A DNA stretch of 46,080 nucleotides from Singulisphaera sp. (GTDB taxonomy: Bacteria; Planctomycetota; Planctomycetia; Isosphaerales; Isosphaeraceae). Below, piece by piece: positions 14,904-22,274 of the stretch (positions are counted from its first letter, which is position 1; every line of letters starts with the position of its first letter). A model generated the notes under the pieces. The model made no database searches. It was given only the letters and a program-made list of their open reading frames with translations, and was not told the origin of the DNA. The position numbers were made by a program, and so were the translations under genes. The stretch is taken from positions 1 through 46,080 of the forward strand of contig DAIDJG010000039.1 of the NCBI GenBank assembly GCA_027451445.1, in the 5' to 3' direction.

Positions 14904-15419
14904 TTGGTCGCGGTCTCAACGAGGGTTTGGAAGTCGGACGCGCTGAACTCCGTACCCCTGTCGAAAACCGATTCCGGCGCGACCAGCGTTTCTGTCGACA
15001 TCGAGGGTGGAACCCTCCTCGTGGGCGACAACGTAGGCGCATTGCGGTGTCACGACCTGACCACCAGCGCCTCGAAGTGGGACCAGTGGGCCCACACCGG
15101 TGAGGTGGAAAATGTGAGCTGGAGCCCCGATCATCGGCTCGCGGCTTCGACCAGCGCCGACGGCACGCTTCGGCTCTGGAACGCGAAAACGGGTGACCCC
15201 CTCCGCGTGTTCTTGCCGCTTGATCATGACCGTGCCGTGTTGATCTCCGCGGCAGGCCGGCTGGGCGCCGACTCTCGCGGACTCCAGGACAAGTTCGCCT
15301 ACGTGTTCCAGGTCAGCTCCGATGCACCGATCGAATTCCTTCCGCCGGGTGCATTTCGCCAGCGCTTCGGCAAGAGCTTTCCCGAGTTCCTCGACGAGGA
15401 TCGTCCCCTCTGCCGTTGA
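14904..15419 (+). pseudogene. WD40-repeat protein, C-terminal fragment
   Basis: At most 171 codons. It contains about two WD40 blades: TSVSVDIEGGTLLVGDNVGA, then HTGEVENVSWSPDHRLAAST followed by SADGTLRLWNAKTGDPLRVF. A complete propeller needs about seven blades, and no further blades are found upstream in any frame, so this is the 3' end of a larger gene (in this phylum often a kinase-WD40 protein). No ribosome site precedes the first start codon. It ends 139 bp before the Tn3 insertion, so the transposon did not cause the truncation. An antisense frame at 14813-15031 also looks protein-like over the first part. Confidence 0.55.
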
Positions 15420-15552: not shown

Positions 15553-15557
15553 GTGAT
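15553..15557. repeat. Target-site duplication, left copy (GTGAT)
   Basis: The five bases directly outside the left inverted repeat are GTGAT. The same five bases follow the right inverted repeat at 22270-22274. A 5-bp duplication is standard for Tn3-family transposition. Confidence 0.92.
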
Positions 15558-15597
15558 GGGCTTCCGATAGCAACGGAGAAAAAAACAACGCTCTTCA
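15558..15597 (+). repeat. Tn3 left terminal inverted repeat (IRL)
   Basis: Begins GGGCTTCCGATAGCAACGGA at 15558 and matches the complement of 22230-22269 over about 40 bp with three differences (positions 4, 34 and 41 region). It lacks the fourth G of the usual GGGG start. It includes the tnpA stop codon (15595-15597). Confidence 0.93.
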
Positions 15598-18577
15598 TCG
15601 GGACTTTTGTTCAGAAGGCTGGCGGAGCGGCCGCAGGCGGGAGCGGCTCAAGCCATCCTCGACCTCGAAACGGTACTTGCCGTACGGGTTGATGTGCTCG
15701 TAGCGGGCCGGGGAGAGACGAGCGATGTCTTCCTCGTTTACTGTCTTGCCCTCGGCCCGGAGACGGTCGACCACCGCCGCCATATAGACCGTGTTCCAGG
15801 TCACCACCGCGTTGGTCACCAGGTTCAGGCAGCCCGCCTGGTTCATCAACTCCTCCTCCTGCTTCTTCCGGAGCGTCCCCTTGTTCGCGAACAGGAGAAA
15901 CTCCCGCAAGCCGTGGAGGGCCTCGCCCTTGTTGAGCTGGGCTTGAATCCGCCGCCGGAGTTGCTCGCTTTCCAGGTAACGCAGGATGAAGATCGTTTTC
16001 ACCAGGCGGCCGTATTCCTGCATGGCCCGGGTCAGCCGATTCTTGCGAGGGTAGGACTGGAGCATGCCGATCAGCAGCGACGAGGTAACCCAGCCGCGTT
16101 TCAGCGAACCGGCGACCCGCAACAGGTCATCCCATTGCCGCAGGATCCGATCGCGGTTGATCCGCCCTTTGAGCAGAGGCCCCAGGCGAGGGTGTCGCTT
16201 CTCACGCTCCATGCGAAACAGCCGCTGGTCCCCAAGGTCGCGGATGCGTGGGGAAAACTGCAAGCCAAGCAGGTCGAACAGGGCGAAGACAATCTCGGTA
16301 TAGCCGGCCGTGTCGGTCGTGTGCTCCAGGATCGGCAGCTCGGTCTCGTTGTCGAGGATCTCGTCGAGCACGTAGGTTGCGTCCCGGACTGTGGTGGGGA
16401 TGACCTTGGTGCCATACTGCGAGAACTGGTCCGCGGTCCAGGTGTAGAAGGTCACCCCCTTGCCGTAGCCGAAGTAGCGCGGCAGAGCCGTGGCCATCCG
16501 AACCTTTCCGGAGACGGGGAAACGCTGACCGTCGGATGAGGACAGCGTCCCGCTGCCCCAGAACCGGCTCAGCGGCTGGTGGTACTGGAAGTTGACGAGG
16601 TTCGTCGTCGCGGCCTTCAGGGTCTCGTCGCGGACGTACCAGTTCGTCCACCAGGCCAGTTTCTGGTAGGTCAGGTCGGAGATCCGCGCCATGCGGGTCG
16701 AGCCGAGGTTGCAGGCCTGGGCAAGGACCGCCGCATAGAGGTGGCTCCGGAGTTCGCGGCTCCGCGGCTCCGTCCCCCCGGCGTGCTCGAAGTCGTCGCT
16801 GAAGCGCGTCCAGCCGTCGACCTCGATGAGCAACTCGCTCAGTTCGACTAACGGCAACCGCTCATCGATGAGTCGTTCCAACTCCGCTGTGCTCTCCGGC
16901 TTCTGCTCCGCCTCCAAGGGGGAGACCACCAGGTCGTTGCCCTCCATGCGGACGTCCCCGCCCTTGGCGAGCAAGGCCTCGACCCGGTCCAGGAGCCCGC
17001 TCAGCTCCTTCTCACGCTCGCGCAGACGATCCGTTCCGTCTTCCGGGGCCTGGATCTCACGACACACCTCGGCCCGGAGGCCGGGCCAACCCTCCCGGGG
17101 GATCAGATAGGTCTGGGGGTCGGCGTAGCGGCGGCTCCTTTCCAGCCACACATCCCCCGCCCGCAAGGCTCCTCGCAGCTCCCACAGCACGCACAGTTTC
17201 GAAGTAGTGACGGCGTTTCGTCGGGTCGGGGTTGTCATTGACGTAGGGCCGCCACCGCGCGGGGACAAACTCAAGTGGCGTTTCCTCGGGGAGGACACGC
17301 CGTCCTTCGGCGTTGAGCTGACGGAGCAGGTCCACGGCCCCGATCAAGGGCGAATCGCCGCTGGCGTGAAACGCAAGAGCATCGATGAACTCGGGGGTGA
17401 ACTGGCGGAGGTAGCTGTAACGGCTCTCCAGGAAGTCGAAATAGTGGTCGTCGAGGGGCCGGATGATCCGGTCGGACTCCTCGACGGCGTCCCGGAGTTC
17501 ATTCGGGGGGATGCGGCGGTAGATGGTTCGTCGCAGGTCCGCATCCTTGACCTTGGGATCGAGAACCACCCGACCGATCTCGCGGAAGAGCTGGACCTTC
17601 TCGTTCGTCGAGCGGGCGACCGAGAGCCGGAAGTCCTCCAGGTCGCGACTGGCCCGGTGGTAGGCCTCCGCGAGGCAGCGGTCGAACAGGTCGAGCGCCT
17701 CATCGGTCAGGTCGACCAGGGTTTGGAGGAGGAAGGCGACGAGGATCGGGTAACGCCGTTGCTCGGGCATCCGCTGGAGGGCCTGGTTCGTGGACCGACG
17801 AGCGACCTGGGCCAGGAACTTCAGGCGGTTCGGGGTCAGCGACGATACGTCCCAGCGGTCGACACCCCATTGCCGGCAGCAGGCCCGCTTCTCCAGGGTG
17901 GCGAGGATCATCGGCGGCGAGTATGTCGTGGCGGATTGCTGGAGCCAGGCCAGGCTGGAGCGCCCGGTGTCGGCGTCGACAGTCAGCAGGCCGTCGAGCC
18001 GGGACTTGCAGTCCCTGGTCAGGATCGCGCCCAGCCGTCGGTAGGTCTCCTGCTGGGCCCGCTGTCGGGCCGAGGCGATGACGCGTTCCAGGTGGGTGAT
18101 CCCCGGCCGCTCGACCCGGAGGCTCAGGAGATGTTCGCCAGCCAGGCGCAGCAGCAAGGTTGGACGGTCATGCTCGAGGGCGCGGTCCACGAGCCAGCTT
18201 TCGAGCTGGGCCAGGTCTCTGGCCGTGGCCTTGTGGAAGCGGAGGTAACACCGGATCTGCCGGAGGTGTTCCGTCCGCGTCTGGCCGCGTCGGCCATACC
18301 GCCCCAGATCGCCCGGAGCGATGTCGAGTTGCTCCGCCACGAACGTGACGACCGCCTCGGGGACGGTGCTCAGGTCGTCCGGGCAGAAGCCCAGGAAGCG
18401 GAGCGTGCCGAGTTGGAGGGCGAACCCGAGACGGTTGGCGGCCGAAGTGGTGCGTGGGATCTGAGCATGGTCCGCACGGGACAGGGTGAAGTAGGTCTCG
18501 ATGTCGCCGGGGACGATCTGGGCGGGGAAGTTGTCGAGCCGCTCGCGTTCCGCCTCGGTGAGGAACCCGATGGGCAC
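15595..18577 (-). pseudogene. tnpA: Tn3-family transposase TnpA, frameshifted
   Basis: A Tn3 transposase of about 990 codons in two frames. Start is GTG 18577 (MPIGFLTEAERERL) with GGAGGAG 6 nt upstream. The first part (to ~17200) is the DUF4158 N-terminal region. In RRHYFE-TVRAV the frame is lost and the second frame resumes with LCVLWELRGALRAGDVWLE: family members read HYFELCVL or similar, so one extra A within GAAAC (plus-strand T-run 17197-17199) explains it. The second part keeps all catalytic motifs: SSDGQRF (first Asp), HTTDTAGYTE (second Asp) and LNKGEALHG (Glu). Either it is inactive, it needs +1 frameshifting, or the extra base is a sequence error. Everything else in the element looks functional, which makes an error or very recent loss credible. 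Confidence 0.9.
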
Positions 18578-18619
18578 GGCGGTCTCCTCCGGGGAGCGCT
18601 TGCCCCGGTCTTCTCGCAA

Positions 18620-18763
18620 ACGAAGGGTTCCGAGAGGCCCCGACGGCTCAAAGCCGGCGACGGCAAAACCAGGGCATTCCGCTTCTCAGAATCCGTTCTC
18701 GGGATGAATTCTCGGCAGTGTACGGCTACGATGGGTTTCGAGAAAGCTGGCGGGAGGGTTCCC
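18620..18763. promoter_or_regulatory. Probable res/control region between tnpA and tnpR
   Basis: The gap between the divergent tnpA and tnpR genes is where Tn3 elements carry the resolution site and both promoters. It contains repeated CCGAGA/TTCTCGG words (around 18630, 18697 and 18710). I could not define the resolvase subsites with certainty. Confidence 0.45.
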
Positions 18764-19318
18764 ATGCGGATCGGTTACGCCCGGGTCTCCACCGACGAGC
18801 AGTCGCTCGACCTCCAGCTCGACGCCCTGAAGAAGGCCGGGTGCAGGCGGGTCTTTACCGACAAGGCGTCGGCCGTGAACGGGGACCGCCCGGGCCTTGC
18901 GGACGTAGCGTCGCACCTCCGGTCGGGCGACGTGCTTGTAATCTGGAAGCTGGACCGGCTGGGGCGGACGGTGAAGGGACTGGTCGAGTTCGTGTCCGAC
19001 CTGCAGGACCGTGGGGTCCAGTTCCGCAGCCTGACCGACGGCATCGACACCACGACCCCGGCGGGCCGGTTCTTCTTCCACGTGATGGCGTCGCTGGCCC
19101 AGATGGAGCGGGAGCTGATGGCCGAGCGCACCCGGGCCGGACTCGACGCGGCGCGGCGGCGGGGGCGGGTCGGAGGGCGCAAGCGGCGGATGACCCCGGG
19201 GAAGGTCGAGTCGGCCCGCAAGCTCCTCAAGGGCGGGATGGCCCCCCGGGACGTGGCCCAGAGCCTTGGAGTTTCGGTCCCGACGCTCTACCGCTGGGTT
19301 CCCGCCTCGAGTCGGTGA
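18764..19318 (+). CDS. tnpR: Serine resolvase TnpR
   Basis: A 184-aa small serine recombinase; start ATG 18764 with GGGAGGG 5 nt upstream. The catalytic domain begins MRIGYARVSTDEQSLDLQLD, with Ser9 as the nucleophile, followed by VLVIWKLDRLGRTVKGLVEF (the LDRLGR arginines) and SLAQMERELMAERTRAGLDA. The C-terminal ~45 residues are a resolvase helix-turn-helix (MAPRDVAQSLGVSVPTLYRW). All motifs are intact and the length is normal. It would resolve cointegrates at a res site in the 144-bp gap to tnpA and probably represses both genes. The protease gene follows 67 nt downstream on the same strand. Confidence 0.95.
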   Translation: MRIGYARVSTDEQSLDLQLDALKKAGCRRVFTDKASAVNGDRPGLADVASHLRSGDVLVIWKLDRLGRTVKGLVEFVSDLQDRGVQFRSLTDGIDTTTPAGRFFFHVMASLAQMERELMAERTRAGLDAARRRGRVGGRKRRMTPGKVESARKLLKGGMAPRDVAQSLGVSVPTLYRWVPASSR

Positions 19319-19385
19319 GCCGCATGGAGAATGATCACTTCTCCGTCGATGGACCAGGTCGGCCGAATCCTCGTGAGGGTGCGCC

Positions 19386-22154
19386 ATGTTGATCCCGCTC
19401 CTGACTGTGGGGGCCATCATCGCCGGAGCGACGGACCAGGCCGGGGCAACGGGCCGAGAGGTCTTGGTCGACCGGTCCAGGCTCGCGGCGCCGAAACCGT
19501 ACCTGGGCGACCTGGCTGCCGCGTTCGTCGGTGCCGAGGTCGAAGGCCAGCCCGAAGCCTCGTCGTACGTCGTCTCGGGCGTCACCGTCCCTCCCGGCGG
19601 GTGGGAGATCGACGCAATCTCCGTCTACTTCAGGAGCCCGGCCACCGCTCCGGGCGGCAAGCCCCCGTCCATCAAGGGGAGGCTCAACGTCGTTCTCCGC
19701 GAGGGGAGGGCCGAACGACCTCGACCGGCGGACGACCCGCGCAAGGGGAGGATCGTCTCGGTCGTCGTGAAGCCGCGGGACGGCTTCAACGAGATTCGAG
19801 CCGAGGGGCTGGGCATCCGGCTCCGCCCCGGCGAATACTGGCTCGGCCTGACGCCGGTCTGCCGCCCCGATGCCCGCGGCACGCGGCTCGTCATGCGTGC
19901 GGAAGGCCACGCGGCCGATCGGTTCGAGCCGGCCGTCTTCTTCCCCGAGGGCGCGGAGGCCGCCCTGGGGCAGCCCGGTCGATGGAATACACTGACCGAA
20001 GCCCTGCGAACCACGTTCGACGGCGAGGTCGCGATGCGAGTCGAGGGCCGCCGCCTCCCCCGGGGGACGGTCGCCGTCGCCGCCCGCCCTCCGGTCGAAG
20101 CCCATCCCAGGATCTTGCTACGGGGCGTGGAGTTCGAGCCGCTCGAGAAGGTCCCTGATGTCGCGCCCGACCTGACCGCGGCGGCGGCGAGCCGGGTCGT
20201 CGTCGTCCAGCTCCGAGCGGCCCCGGATCAGGCCGTCTGTGCCCGGCTCACCGAGCTGGGCGTCACACGGCTCGACTACATCCCCGAGAACGCCTACCTC
20301 GTTGAGTGCAGCCCGGACGTTCGGGACAGGCTCGCGGCCATGCCCGAGGTCCGCTGGGTCGGGCCCTATCATCCCGCGTACAAGATCGCCCCGGGCTTGC
20401 TCGCTCGCGGCCCGGGGGATGGGGGCGAGCCCGGGCGACCGGTGCCATGCCACATCCGGGTCTTCGACCAGGGGACCGCTTCCAGGAAAGAGGCCGTGTC
20501 GCGCATCGAGCGGAATGGGGGGGTGGCCGATGCGGTACGAATCCCTGATCCGGCCGGTCGTTCCTTCCGCCTGATGCCCGTGCACCCCAGGAAGTACCGG
20601 GTTACCGCAGAGCTCAGCGATCCGATGATCCTCGCGCTGGCCCGGTGCGATTCGGTGTCGTTCATCGAGCCGTACCGCGGTGATGCCGGGGGCGGTCAGG
20701 CGGGGGGTGCGGTCGGCGAAGCCGCCGGCGCCGCGATCATGACGCTGAGTGACGTCCGCTCCCTGTTCGGGGCCGACCACGTCGAGGCGACCGGCGGCTA
20801 CCGGGGCCGAGGGGTGCGGGGGGCAGTAATCGATACCGACGTCCGGGACGATCATGTGGACCTCGACTCGCGGCCGACGTTGTACGCCGTCCCTCGTCTC
20901 GGCGGCAGCCCGTTTCACGGGACCGCCACCGCAGGGATCCTCTTCGGCGACGGCACGGGTAATCCGCGTGCGAGGGGGATTCTGCCCCAGGGGCTGCTCG
21001 TCTTCGCCGCCGCGCCCATGCCGTCGACCGATCACTACGACCTCGACACGCTCGCCCGTTCGATCACGGCGCCGCCGTACTCGGTCGTCTTCGTCTCCGA
21101 CGCCACCGGACATTCCGAGTTCACGCACTACGACTGCCACTCCGTCGAGCTCGACGAGGCGGTCTTCGACCGCGACTTGATCGTGTGCAAGGCGATGGGG
21201 AATTCCGGGCATCGTACCGCGATGGAGGGCGGCTGGTCGAAGAACGCGATCGTGATCGGCGGGGCCGACCACCAGGGCAGCCAATCCCGTGACGAGCACC
21301 GTCCCTGGGGGGCCTCGAGCTTCGGCCCGGCGTCGGATGGCCGGATCAAGCCCGACCTGGTGCACTTCGCGAGCGGCATCATCGCGCCGGATGCCGCCAC
21401 GAGGTCCAGCTACGCTCCCTTCAGCGGCACCAGTTGCGCCACGCCGCTGACGGCCGGCCACGTCGGCCTGATGCTCGAGATGTGGGCCGACAACCGCTTC
21501 GGGACCTGGCCGCGCGGCCGGACCGTCTCCGACCGCCGGCCGCACGCCGCGACCGCCAAGGCGCTGCTCATCAACTCCGCCGCAGCCTACCCGTTCGAGG
21601 GCGAGCAGGCCCCGTTCTCGCGGCCCCACCAGGGTTGGGGGGTGGCCGACCTGCGACGCCTCGACCTCCTCCGCGACCGGCTCTTCGTCGTGGACGAGGA
21701 CACGCCCCTGGCGAGCCGGCAGGCGATCACTTACCGGCTCAGGGTCGTGCCGGGGGAGGCGGCTTTGCGGGCGACGCTCGCCTACACCGACCCCCCCGGA
21801 TCGCCGGCCGCGGGGGCTCACCTCGTCAACGACCTCGACCTGACCGTGACCTCCCCGGACGGCGTCGTCTACCGCGGGAACAACGGCCTGCTCGCCGGGC
21901 TGTGGTCCGGGCCCGGCGGCCGGCCCGATCGGACCAACAACCTCGAGAACGTCTTTGTCAGCCGCCCTTCCGCCGGGACCTGGACGATCGAGGTGGCCGT
22001 CCACCGCTTGGCGTTCGATCAGTACCGGGAAACACCCGACCTCGATTGTGACTTCGCGCTGGTCGTCAGCGGTGTCGGCCGCGATCCCGTCTCGTCCGAT
22101 GCGCCGGATCACCGAGCCGCAGGCGAGGCTCTCCCTGAAAAGTCACCGCGTTGA
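19386..22154 (+). CDS. Secreted subtilisin-like serine protease (S8), transposon passenger
   Basis: A 922-aa protein; ATG 19386 has GAGGG about 6 nt upstream. A signal peptide covers residues ~1-22. Residues ~45-220 form a beta-rich domain (SSYVVSGVTVPPGGWEIDAI), and ~268-430 look like tandem inhibitor/propeptide-type segments (VVVVQLRAAPDQAVCARLTE). The S8 catalytic domain has Asp483 (AVIDTDVRDDHVDL), His511 (FHGTATAGIL), the oxyanion Asn606 (KAMGNSG) and Ser683 (SGTSCATPLTAGH). The C-terminal ~180 residues form a P-domain-like beta region (LVNDLDLTVTSPDGVVYRGN; AGTWTIEV). The full triad suggests activity outside the cytoplasm. It sits between tnpR and the right repeat with nothing else, so it is the element's only cargo. 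The long antisense frame is a GC artefact. Confidence 0.9.
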   Translation: MLIPLLTVGAIIAGATDQAGATGREVLVDRSRLAAPKPYLGDLAAAFVGAEVEGQPEASSYVVSGVTVPPGGWEIDAISVYFRSPATAPGGKPPSIKGRLNVVLREGRAERPRPADDPRKGRIVSVVVKPRDGFNEIRAEGLGIRLRPGEYWLGLTPVCRPDARGTRLVMRAEGHAADRFEPAVFFPEGAEAALGQPGRWNTLTEALRTTFDGEVAMRVEGRRLPRGTVAVAARPPVEAHPRILLRGVEFEPLEKVPDVAPDLTAAAASRVVVVQLRAAPDQAVCARLTELGVTRLDYIPENAYLVECSPDVRDRLAAMPEVRWVGPYHPAYKIAPGLLARGPGDGGEPGRPVPCHIRVFDQGTASRKEAVSRIERNGGVADAVRIPDPAGRSFRLMPVHPRKYRVTAELSDPMILALARCDSVSFIEPYRGDAGGGQAGGAVGEAAGAAIMTLSDVRSLFGADHVEATGGYRGRGVRGAVIDTDVRDDHVDLDSRPTLYAVPRLGGSPFHGTATAGILFGDGTGNPRARGILPQGLLVFAAAPMPSTDHYDLDTLARSITAPPYSVVFVSDATGHSEFTHYDCHSVELDEAVFDRDLIVCKAMGNSGHRTAMEGGWSKNAIVIGGADHQGSQSRDEHRPWGASSFGPASDGRIKPDLVHFASGIIAPDAATRSSYAPFSGTSCATPLTAGHVGLMLEMWADNRFGTWPRGRTVSDRRPHAATAKALLINSAAAYPFEGEQAPFSRPHQGWGVADLRRLDLLRDRLFVVDEDTPLASRQAITYRLRVVPGEAALRATLAYTDPPGSPAAGAHLVNDLDLTVTSPDGVVYRGNNGLLAGLWSGPGGRPDRTNNLENVFVSRPSAGTWTIEVAVHRLAFDQYRETPDLDCDFALVVSGVGRDPVSSDAPDHRAAGEALPEKSPR

Positions 22155-22229
22155 TGAATTGGGCGCGGCGAGTCTCCCGGATGCATCGAGCGGCGGCGGC
22201 TCCACCGGCCGGATAAACACCCGTCAGGG

Positions 22230-22269
22230 TGAAGATCGTTGTTTTTTTCTCCGTTGCTATCGGAACCCC
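22230..22269 (-). repeat. Tn3 right terminal inverted repeat (IRR)
   Basis: Read inward on the minus strand it begins GGGGTTCCGATAGCAACGGA, with the GGGG start typical of Tn3 ends, and mirrors IRL over ~40 bp. Confidence 0.93.
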
Positions 22270-22274
22270 GTGAT
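22270..22274. repeat. Target-site duplication, right copy (GTGAT)
   Basis: GTGAT directly outside IRR, identical to 15553-15557. Confidence 0.92.

Follow-up and report, generated by a model that had tools for sequence, protein, structure and literature searches.

Transposons of the Tn3 family share a well-established mechanism, in which the transposase TnpA makes a cointegrate with a 5-bp duplication and the resolvase TnpR resolves it at res. Their known passengers are mostly resistance, catabolic, virulence, and toxin-antitoxin genes. Tn3 itself has 38-bp terminal repeats and divergent tnpA and tnpR genes with res between them, and its passenger, a beta-lactamase, lies beyond tnpR, before the right end. 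The related Tn3-family elements of the Tn5501 group differ mainly in their passengers (PMC7157771) and have a toxin-antitoxin pair next to res. TnXax1, also of the Tn3 family, uses tnpS/tnpT instead of a serine resolvase and carries cell-wall enzymes, including murein lytic transglycosylases (PMC6304161), as well as type III effectors. In the literature we searched, which covered few subscription journals, neither a protease nor a kinase turned up as passenger of a Tn3-family element.

The element described here combines a standard mobile-element architecture with such an unusual passenger. The window we analysed is one whole 46-kb contig of a host genome of 10.9 Mb in 622 contigs. Its flanking genes (DUF1592/1588/1585/1587, DUF1552, and DUF1553/1549 with 'planctomycete cytochrome C' domains) fit a planctomycete host. 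A fragment of a WD40 gene (171 aa, 14904-15419) lies just left of the insertion and seems to be left over from a larger gene. Read inward from the left end, the element has tnpA on the minus strand, a res-like gap, tnpR on the plus strand, and the protease gene:

15553-15557, no strand: left target-site duplication GTGAT, directly outside the left repeat
15558-15595, plus strand: left terminal inverted repeat, 38 bp, 36/38 identical to the right repeat
15595-17298, minus strand: C-terminal part of tnpA with the Tn3 DDE domain (PF01526, E 4.5e-146; NF033527)
17057-18619, minus strand: N-terminal part of tnpA (DUF4158) in another frame, start codon uncertain (PF13700, E 1.4e-49; alignment to the G028 transposase)
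18709-18744, no strand: res-like palindromic subsite between tnpA and tnpR, a motif also found in sister and miniature elements
18764-19318, plus strand: tnpR, serine resolvase, 184 aa (PF00239, E 7e-46, and PF02796)
19386-22154, plus strand: passenger, KP-43-like S8 subtilase, 922 aa, with the S8 domain at aa 475-752
22232-22269, minus strand: right terminal inverted repeat, 38 bp, 36/38 identical to the left repeat
22270-22274, no strand: right target-site duplication GTGAT, directly outside the right repeat

The favoured reading, to which we give a probability of about 0.82, is that a Tn3-family replicative transposon inserted at GTGAT and carried in a subtilase gene, probably acquired horizontally, in an exchangeable slot. 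The layout is that of Tn3, with repeats of the same length, a 5-bp duplication, divergent tnpA and tnpR genes separated by res-like DNA, and a passenger between tnpR and the right end. The differences from Tn3 are a subtilase in place of the beta-lactamase, a TnpA of another lineage, a frameshift in tnpA, and a right end with extra left-end-like sequence. The lineage resembles the Tn5501 group in joining a constant transposition module to exchangeable passengers, but it lacks the toxin-antitoxin pair, and its passengers are a protease or kinases. With TnXax1, the element would share a passenger enzyme acting outside the cytoplasm, if the plausible export of the protease takes place; the passengers of TnXax1 include no subtilase.

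Both ends are fixed precisely. An earlier note on this DNA had given terminal inverted repeats of about 40 bp with a perfect GTGAT duplication outside each, and we recovered both: the repeats, with outer edges at 15558 and 22269, are 38 bp long and differ at two positions, and the duplication is perfect and abuts the two ends. No other site in the window matches the terminal repeats at 24/38 or better, and this is the sole such pair there. Judged from its sequence, the element at 15553-22274 is a Tn3-family transposon by every feature of the family that we examined. Its 38-bp terminal repeats fit the family pattern (about 38 bp, starting with GGGG or similar), and the sister elements described below are bounded alike. 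It has a 5-bp target-site duplication (GTGAT here, AGGCC around the G028 element), a serine resolvase with a conserved res-like subsite, and a homologue, broken in its reading frame, of the Tn3-type DDE transposase, which in this family is about 950-1000 aa long.

This break means that the description of the transposon as complete stands for its structure but not for tnpA, the break in which had escaped the earlier note. Parts of the gene lie in two different frames, and an alignment with the transposase of the sister element in genome G028 switches frame near 17,200, a point that the G028 transposase passes in a single frame. The two halves together cover NF033527 end to end. The frameshift could be an assembly error rather than a true mutation, given a host assembly of 622 contigs with 4.8% estimated contamination. 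Since tnpA is frameshifted, the element is probably not autonomous, and this copy is probably fixed in place by now, although an intact TnpA provided in trans could still mobilise it. The frame of tnpR is intact. By analogy with the established Tn3-family mechanism, TnpA would have made the cointegrate that left the 5-bp duplication, and TnpR would have resolved it at res.

The nature of the passenger is clearest from related elements. We searched 397 genomes of the class, including the window's own, for related transposases (E≤1e-50), and found them in only eight, again counting the window's own; the close ones (89-91% at the amino-acid level) are all from the same family. A phylum-wide sample of 265 genomes contributed only one further match, a distant one (38%), and the best plasmid matches to the window TnpA are at 48-57% (amino acids). 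From 15558 to about 19318, the window aligns at 87% DNA identity with elements of two other genomes, G028 (L062) and G040 (L061). The alignment begins at the left repeat, breaks off at the tnpR stop, and is found again only at the right end. In G028 (L062:8674-16400, G028:C2), the intervening slot holds a lone 1,262-aa Ser/Thr kinase as the only passenger, and the ends are flanked by AGGCC on both sides. In G040 (L061:7987-19355, G040:C4), it holds an ECF sigma factor (PF07638), a 948-aa Ser/Thr kinase, and more DNA with an IS-like gene; no matching target duplication was found at the ends of this element. A further slot, in G018 (L065, G018:C489), has an ECF sigma factor and a Ser/Thr kinase and is truncated by the contig end. 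Its sigma factor and kinase are, respectively, 55% and 52% identical in protein sequence to those of G040.

Because the homology to sister elements stops at tnpR and other cargo occupies the same position, the protease is, on the evidence of these alignments, a true passenger, and the slot it occupies behind tnpR is exchangeable. The protease is also the sole passenger, as the earlier note had claimed: the DNA from the tnpR stop to the right repeat contains no other gene, and the protease stop lies 77 nt short of the right core repeat. In the four elements seen so far, the slot after tnpR varies and the tnp block stays constant. The conserved block comprises the left repeat, tnpA, res, and tnpR and is followed by one slot in the direction of tnpR transcription. 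The protease gene is in line with tnpR and starts 67 nt past its stop, so we infer that its transcript probably arises by read-through from the tnpR promoter.

Other features of the sister elements deserve mention. In G028, tnpR lies in two frames. In both G040 and G018, the sigma factor and then the kinase follow directly behind tnpR, and the tnpA genes are 81-86% alike in DNA, against 52-55% for the cargo proteins. The sister kinases have many matches to the PD-T4-6 defence model, which we rejected as a sign of defence because they reflect the common kinase domain. In G018:C202 (L111:7895-8526), a lone terminal repeat lies beside the 3' end of a repeat-rich gene resembling those of beta-helix surface proteins; it may mark the right end of a further element, one whose passenger is exported.

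The presence of other genes in the same slot also bears on whether the protease could be an old host gene, enclosed by chance or with the element inserted around part of it. The perfect GTGAT at both outer ends argues against this, as does the lack of a protease ortholog in all 44 further genomes of the family; the case that would have spoken for it, relatives that have the protease at this locus but no element, was not encountered. A genome of the same genus (G001) has neither protease nor element. We also compared the joined flanks with 45 family genomes, and obtained short partial matches and no orthologous locus; no empty site with a single GTGAT, of the kind the earlier note had proposed to look for, was thus available to exclude the old-gene reading directly. 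We nevertheless give it almost no credence. The other support anticipated by the note, the same protease within related ends at unrelated loci, did not materialize either. We found no second copy of such an arrangement; in the host genome the protease is single-copy, and no second copy of the element was detected there. The protease-bearing element is therefore known as one copy, which, like the missing empty site, weighs against the favoured reading, since the protease may never have moved with the element after its capture.

A terminal-repeat pattern search, covering the genomes of the family, revealed gene-less miniature elements of 255-256 bp, with both Tn3-type repeats and the palindromic res subsite, in G040 and G004:

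L117:1513-1767: miniature element, G040
L118:1479-1733: miniature element, G040
L119:1504-1758: miniature element, G040
L120:2658-2912: miniature element, G040
L116:1300-1555: miniature element, G004

Those at L117 and L118 have the 5-bp duplication GTATA and share flanks. They resemble TIMEs, short non-autonomous elements known to build mosaic transposons (PMC4133298), in having the same repeats and a res subsite, and could supply solo ends; the window element differs from TIMEs in having its own tnpA and tnpR.

Such solo ends are relevant because the right end of the window element, after the slot, resembles the left end beyond the core repeats. A weaker likeness extends to 77 nt (81% overall). 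It reaches inward to 22193 on the right and, on the left, to 15634, so that it shares bases with the 3' end of tnpA. It is conceivable, at somewhat less than even odds, that the cargo was gained via a second, solo end, a scenario compatible with the favoured reading. A protease gene close to a tnpA-tnpR unit would have had, downstream of it, a left-end-like repeat with a remnant of the tnpA 3' end, and the two outer ends would then have served for transposition. The source of this end may, with similar reserve, have been another copy of the element or a Tn3-derived miniature element, such as the 255-bp ones above. At bases 41-80, right ends are similar to left ends: that of the window matches the left end of G012 at 28/40 and the window's own left end at 25/40, and further inward the match drops to about 13-16/40. 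In the left end, these bases encode the TnpA C-terminus, and in the right end of the G028 element a TnpA tail can be read in frame. Yet transposase binding could by itself select for longer terminal repeats, and beyond the repeat the miniature elements of G040 are unlike the window right end. Right ends were available from three elements only, a number too small for a tree, and intermediates were not found.

The product of the passenger gene matches Peptidase_S8 (PF00082) at aa 475-752 with an E-value of 3e-18. The earlier note had identified it as a 922-aa S8 protease with Asp483, His511, Asn606, and Ser683, and none of the four residues varies when the protein is aligned with nine relatives. 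Among solved structures, the closest are those of the alkaline proteases SubHal (5fax) and KP-43 (1wmd), which match aa 458-875 (418 residues, E about 1e-32), that is, the catalytic domain and the C-terminal region that follows. By sequence alignment only, the latter corresponds to the region of KP-43 where its C-terminal beta-barrel domain sits; the structure predicted from ten sequences (mean pLDDT 38.6) was too poor for use. Unlike these two proteases, the window protease is encoded on a transposon and is longer by about 455 residues at its N-terminus, of which the first 240 (19386-20105) have no relative in the homologous proteases, 12 related genomes, plasmids, or NCBIfam. The protease had been called secreted, which we regard as plausible rather than established, since residues 1-13 are hydrophobic but include no basic residue and an in-frame stop just upstream excludes an upstream start. 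By likeness to KP-43, the product is probably exported and would degrade extracellular protein for nutrition. Predation and matrix digestion, the host-fitness roles raised in the earlier note, are speculative.

The state of the gene is informative about whether the protease is a neutral hitch-hiker in a decayed relic, caught by chance, with no selected function, and now fixed through the frameshift in tnpA. That frameshift, the frame breaks also seen in tnpA or tnpR of sister elements, and the single known copy are all consistent with such decay. However, the 922-aa frame is open, with its catalytic residues intact. The intact tnpR implies that any decay is recent, or that the break in tnpA is an assembly error. 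We consider the relic reading unlikely.

Subtilases occur in some defence systems, and the earlier note had raised the possibility that the element spreads a trait used in defence or competition. The protease does match the PADLOC 'subtilase' model, poorly (38.7 bits) and over the generic catalytic domain only; it scores 16.8 bits against IetS, and the element contains no partner gene. Its nearest characterised relatives are secreted alkaline proteases. These results weakly contradict a defence role, which we judge very improbable.

The distribution of the protease points to a probable foreign origin. Its subfamily is absent from the 396 other genomes of the class, and the best match outside the window among the 397 is of 79 bits. 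By contrast, matches with E<1e-60 occur in about 50 of 392 phylum-wide genomes, all of other classes. In the tree of the catalytic part, the window protease joins a clade from other classes with 100/100 support, leaving the relatives from its own class outside, although its branch is long and its composition unusual. Because the subfamily is missing in the host's class and common in others, the gene was probably gained horizontally. The alternative is vertical descent with loss across the class. On its long branch, the protease is 33-44% identical to relatives. At ten loci of the relatives from other classes, 10-20 kb each, we found no related tnpA or tnpR, and the protease gene looks resident there. 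Plasmids yielded distant protease matches only, and viral contigs none. The GC content of the protease and tnpR genes is 70.8%, against 63-64% in the flanks; the GC3 of the protease gene (86.6%) is inside the range of host genes, and we therefore left composition out of the argument for transfer.

These results widen the range of Tn3-family passengers by a subtilase and, through the sister elements, by kinases and ECF sigma factors. More interesting than the protease alone is the passenger slot, which is common to a planctomycete lineage of elements. We propose, speculatively and with considerable doubt, that a planctomycete-specific Tn3 lineage uses a general slot behind tnpR to collect and spread host-type signalling genes (ECF sigma factor with Ser/Thr kinase, or lone kinases) and exported enzymes, this protease among them. 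If so, the slot would be a route by which large planctomycete genomes gained many kinases, ECF factors, and secreted enzymes, and, if the pattern holds, it would provide a testable route for gene-family expansion in these genomes.
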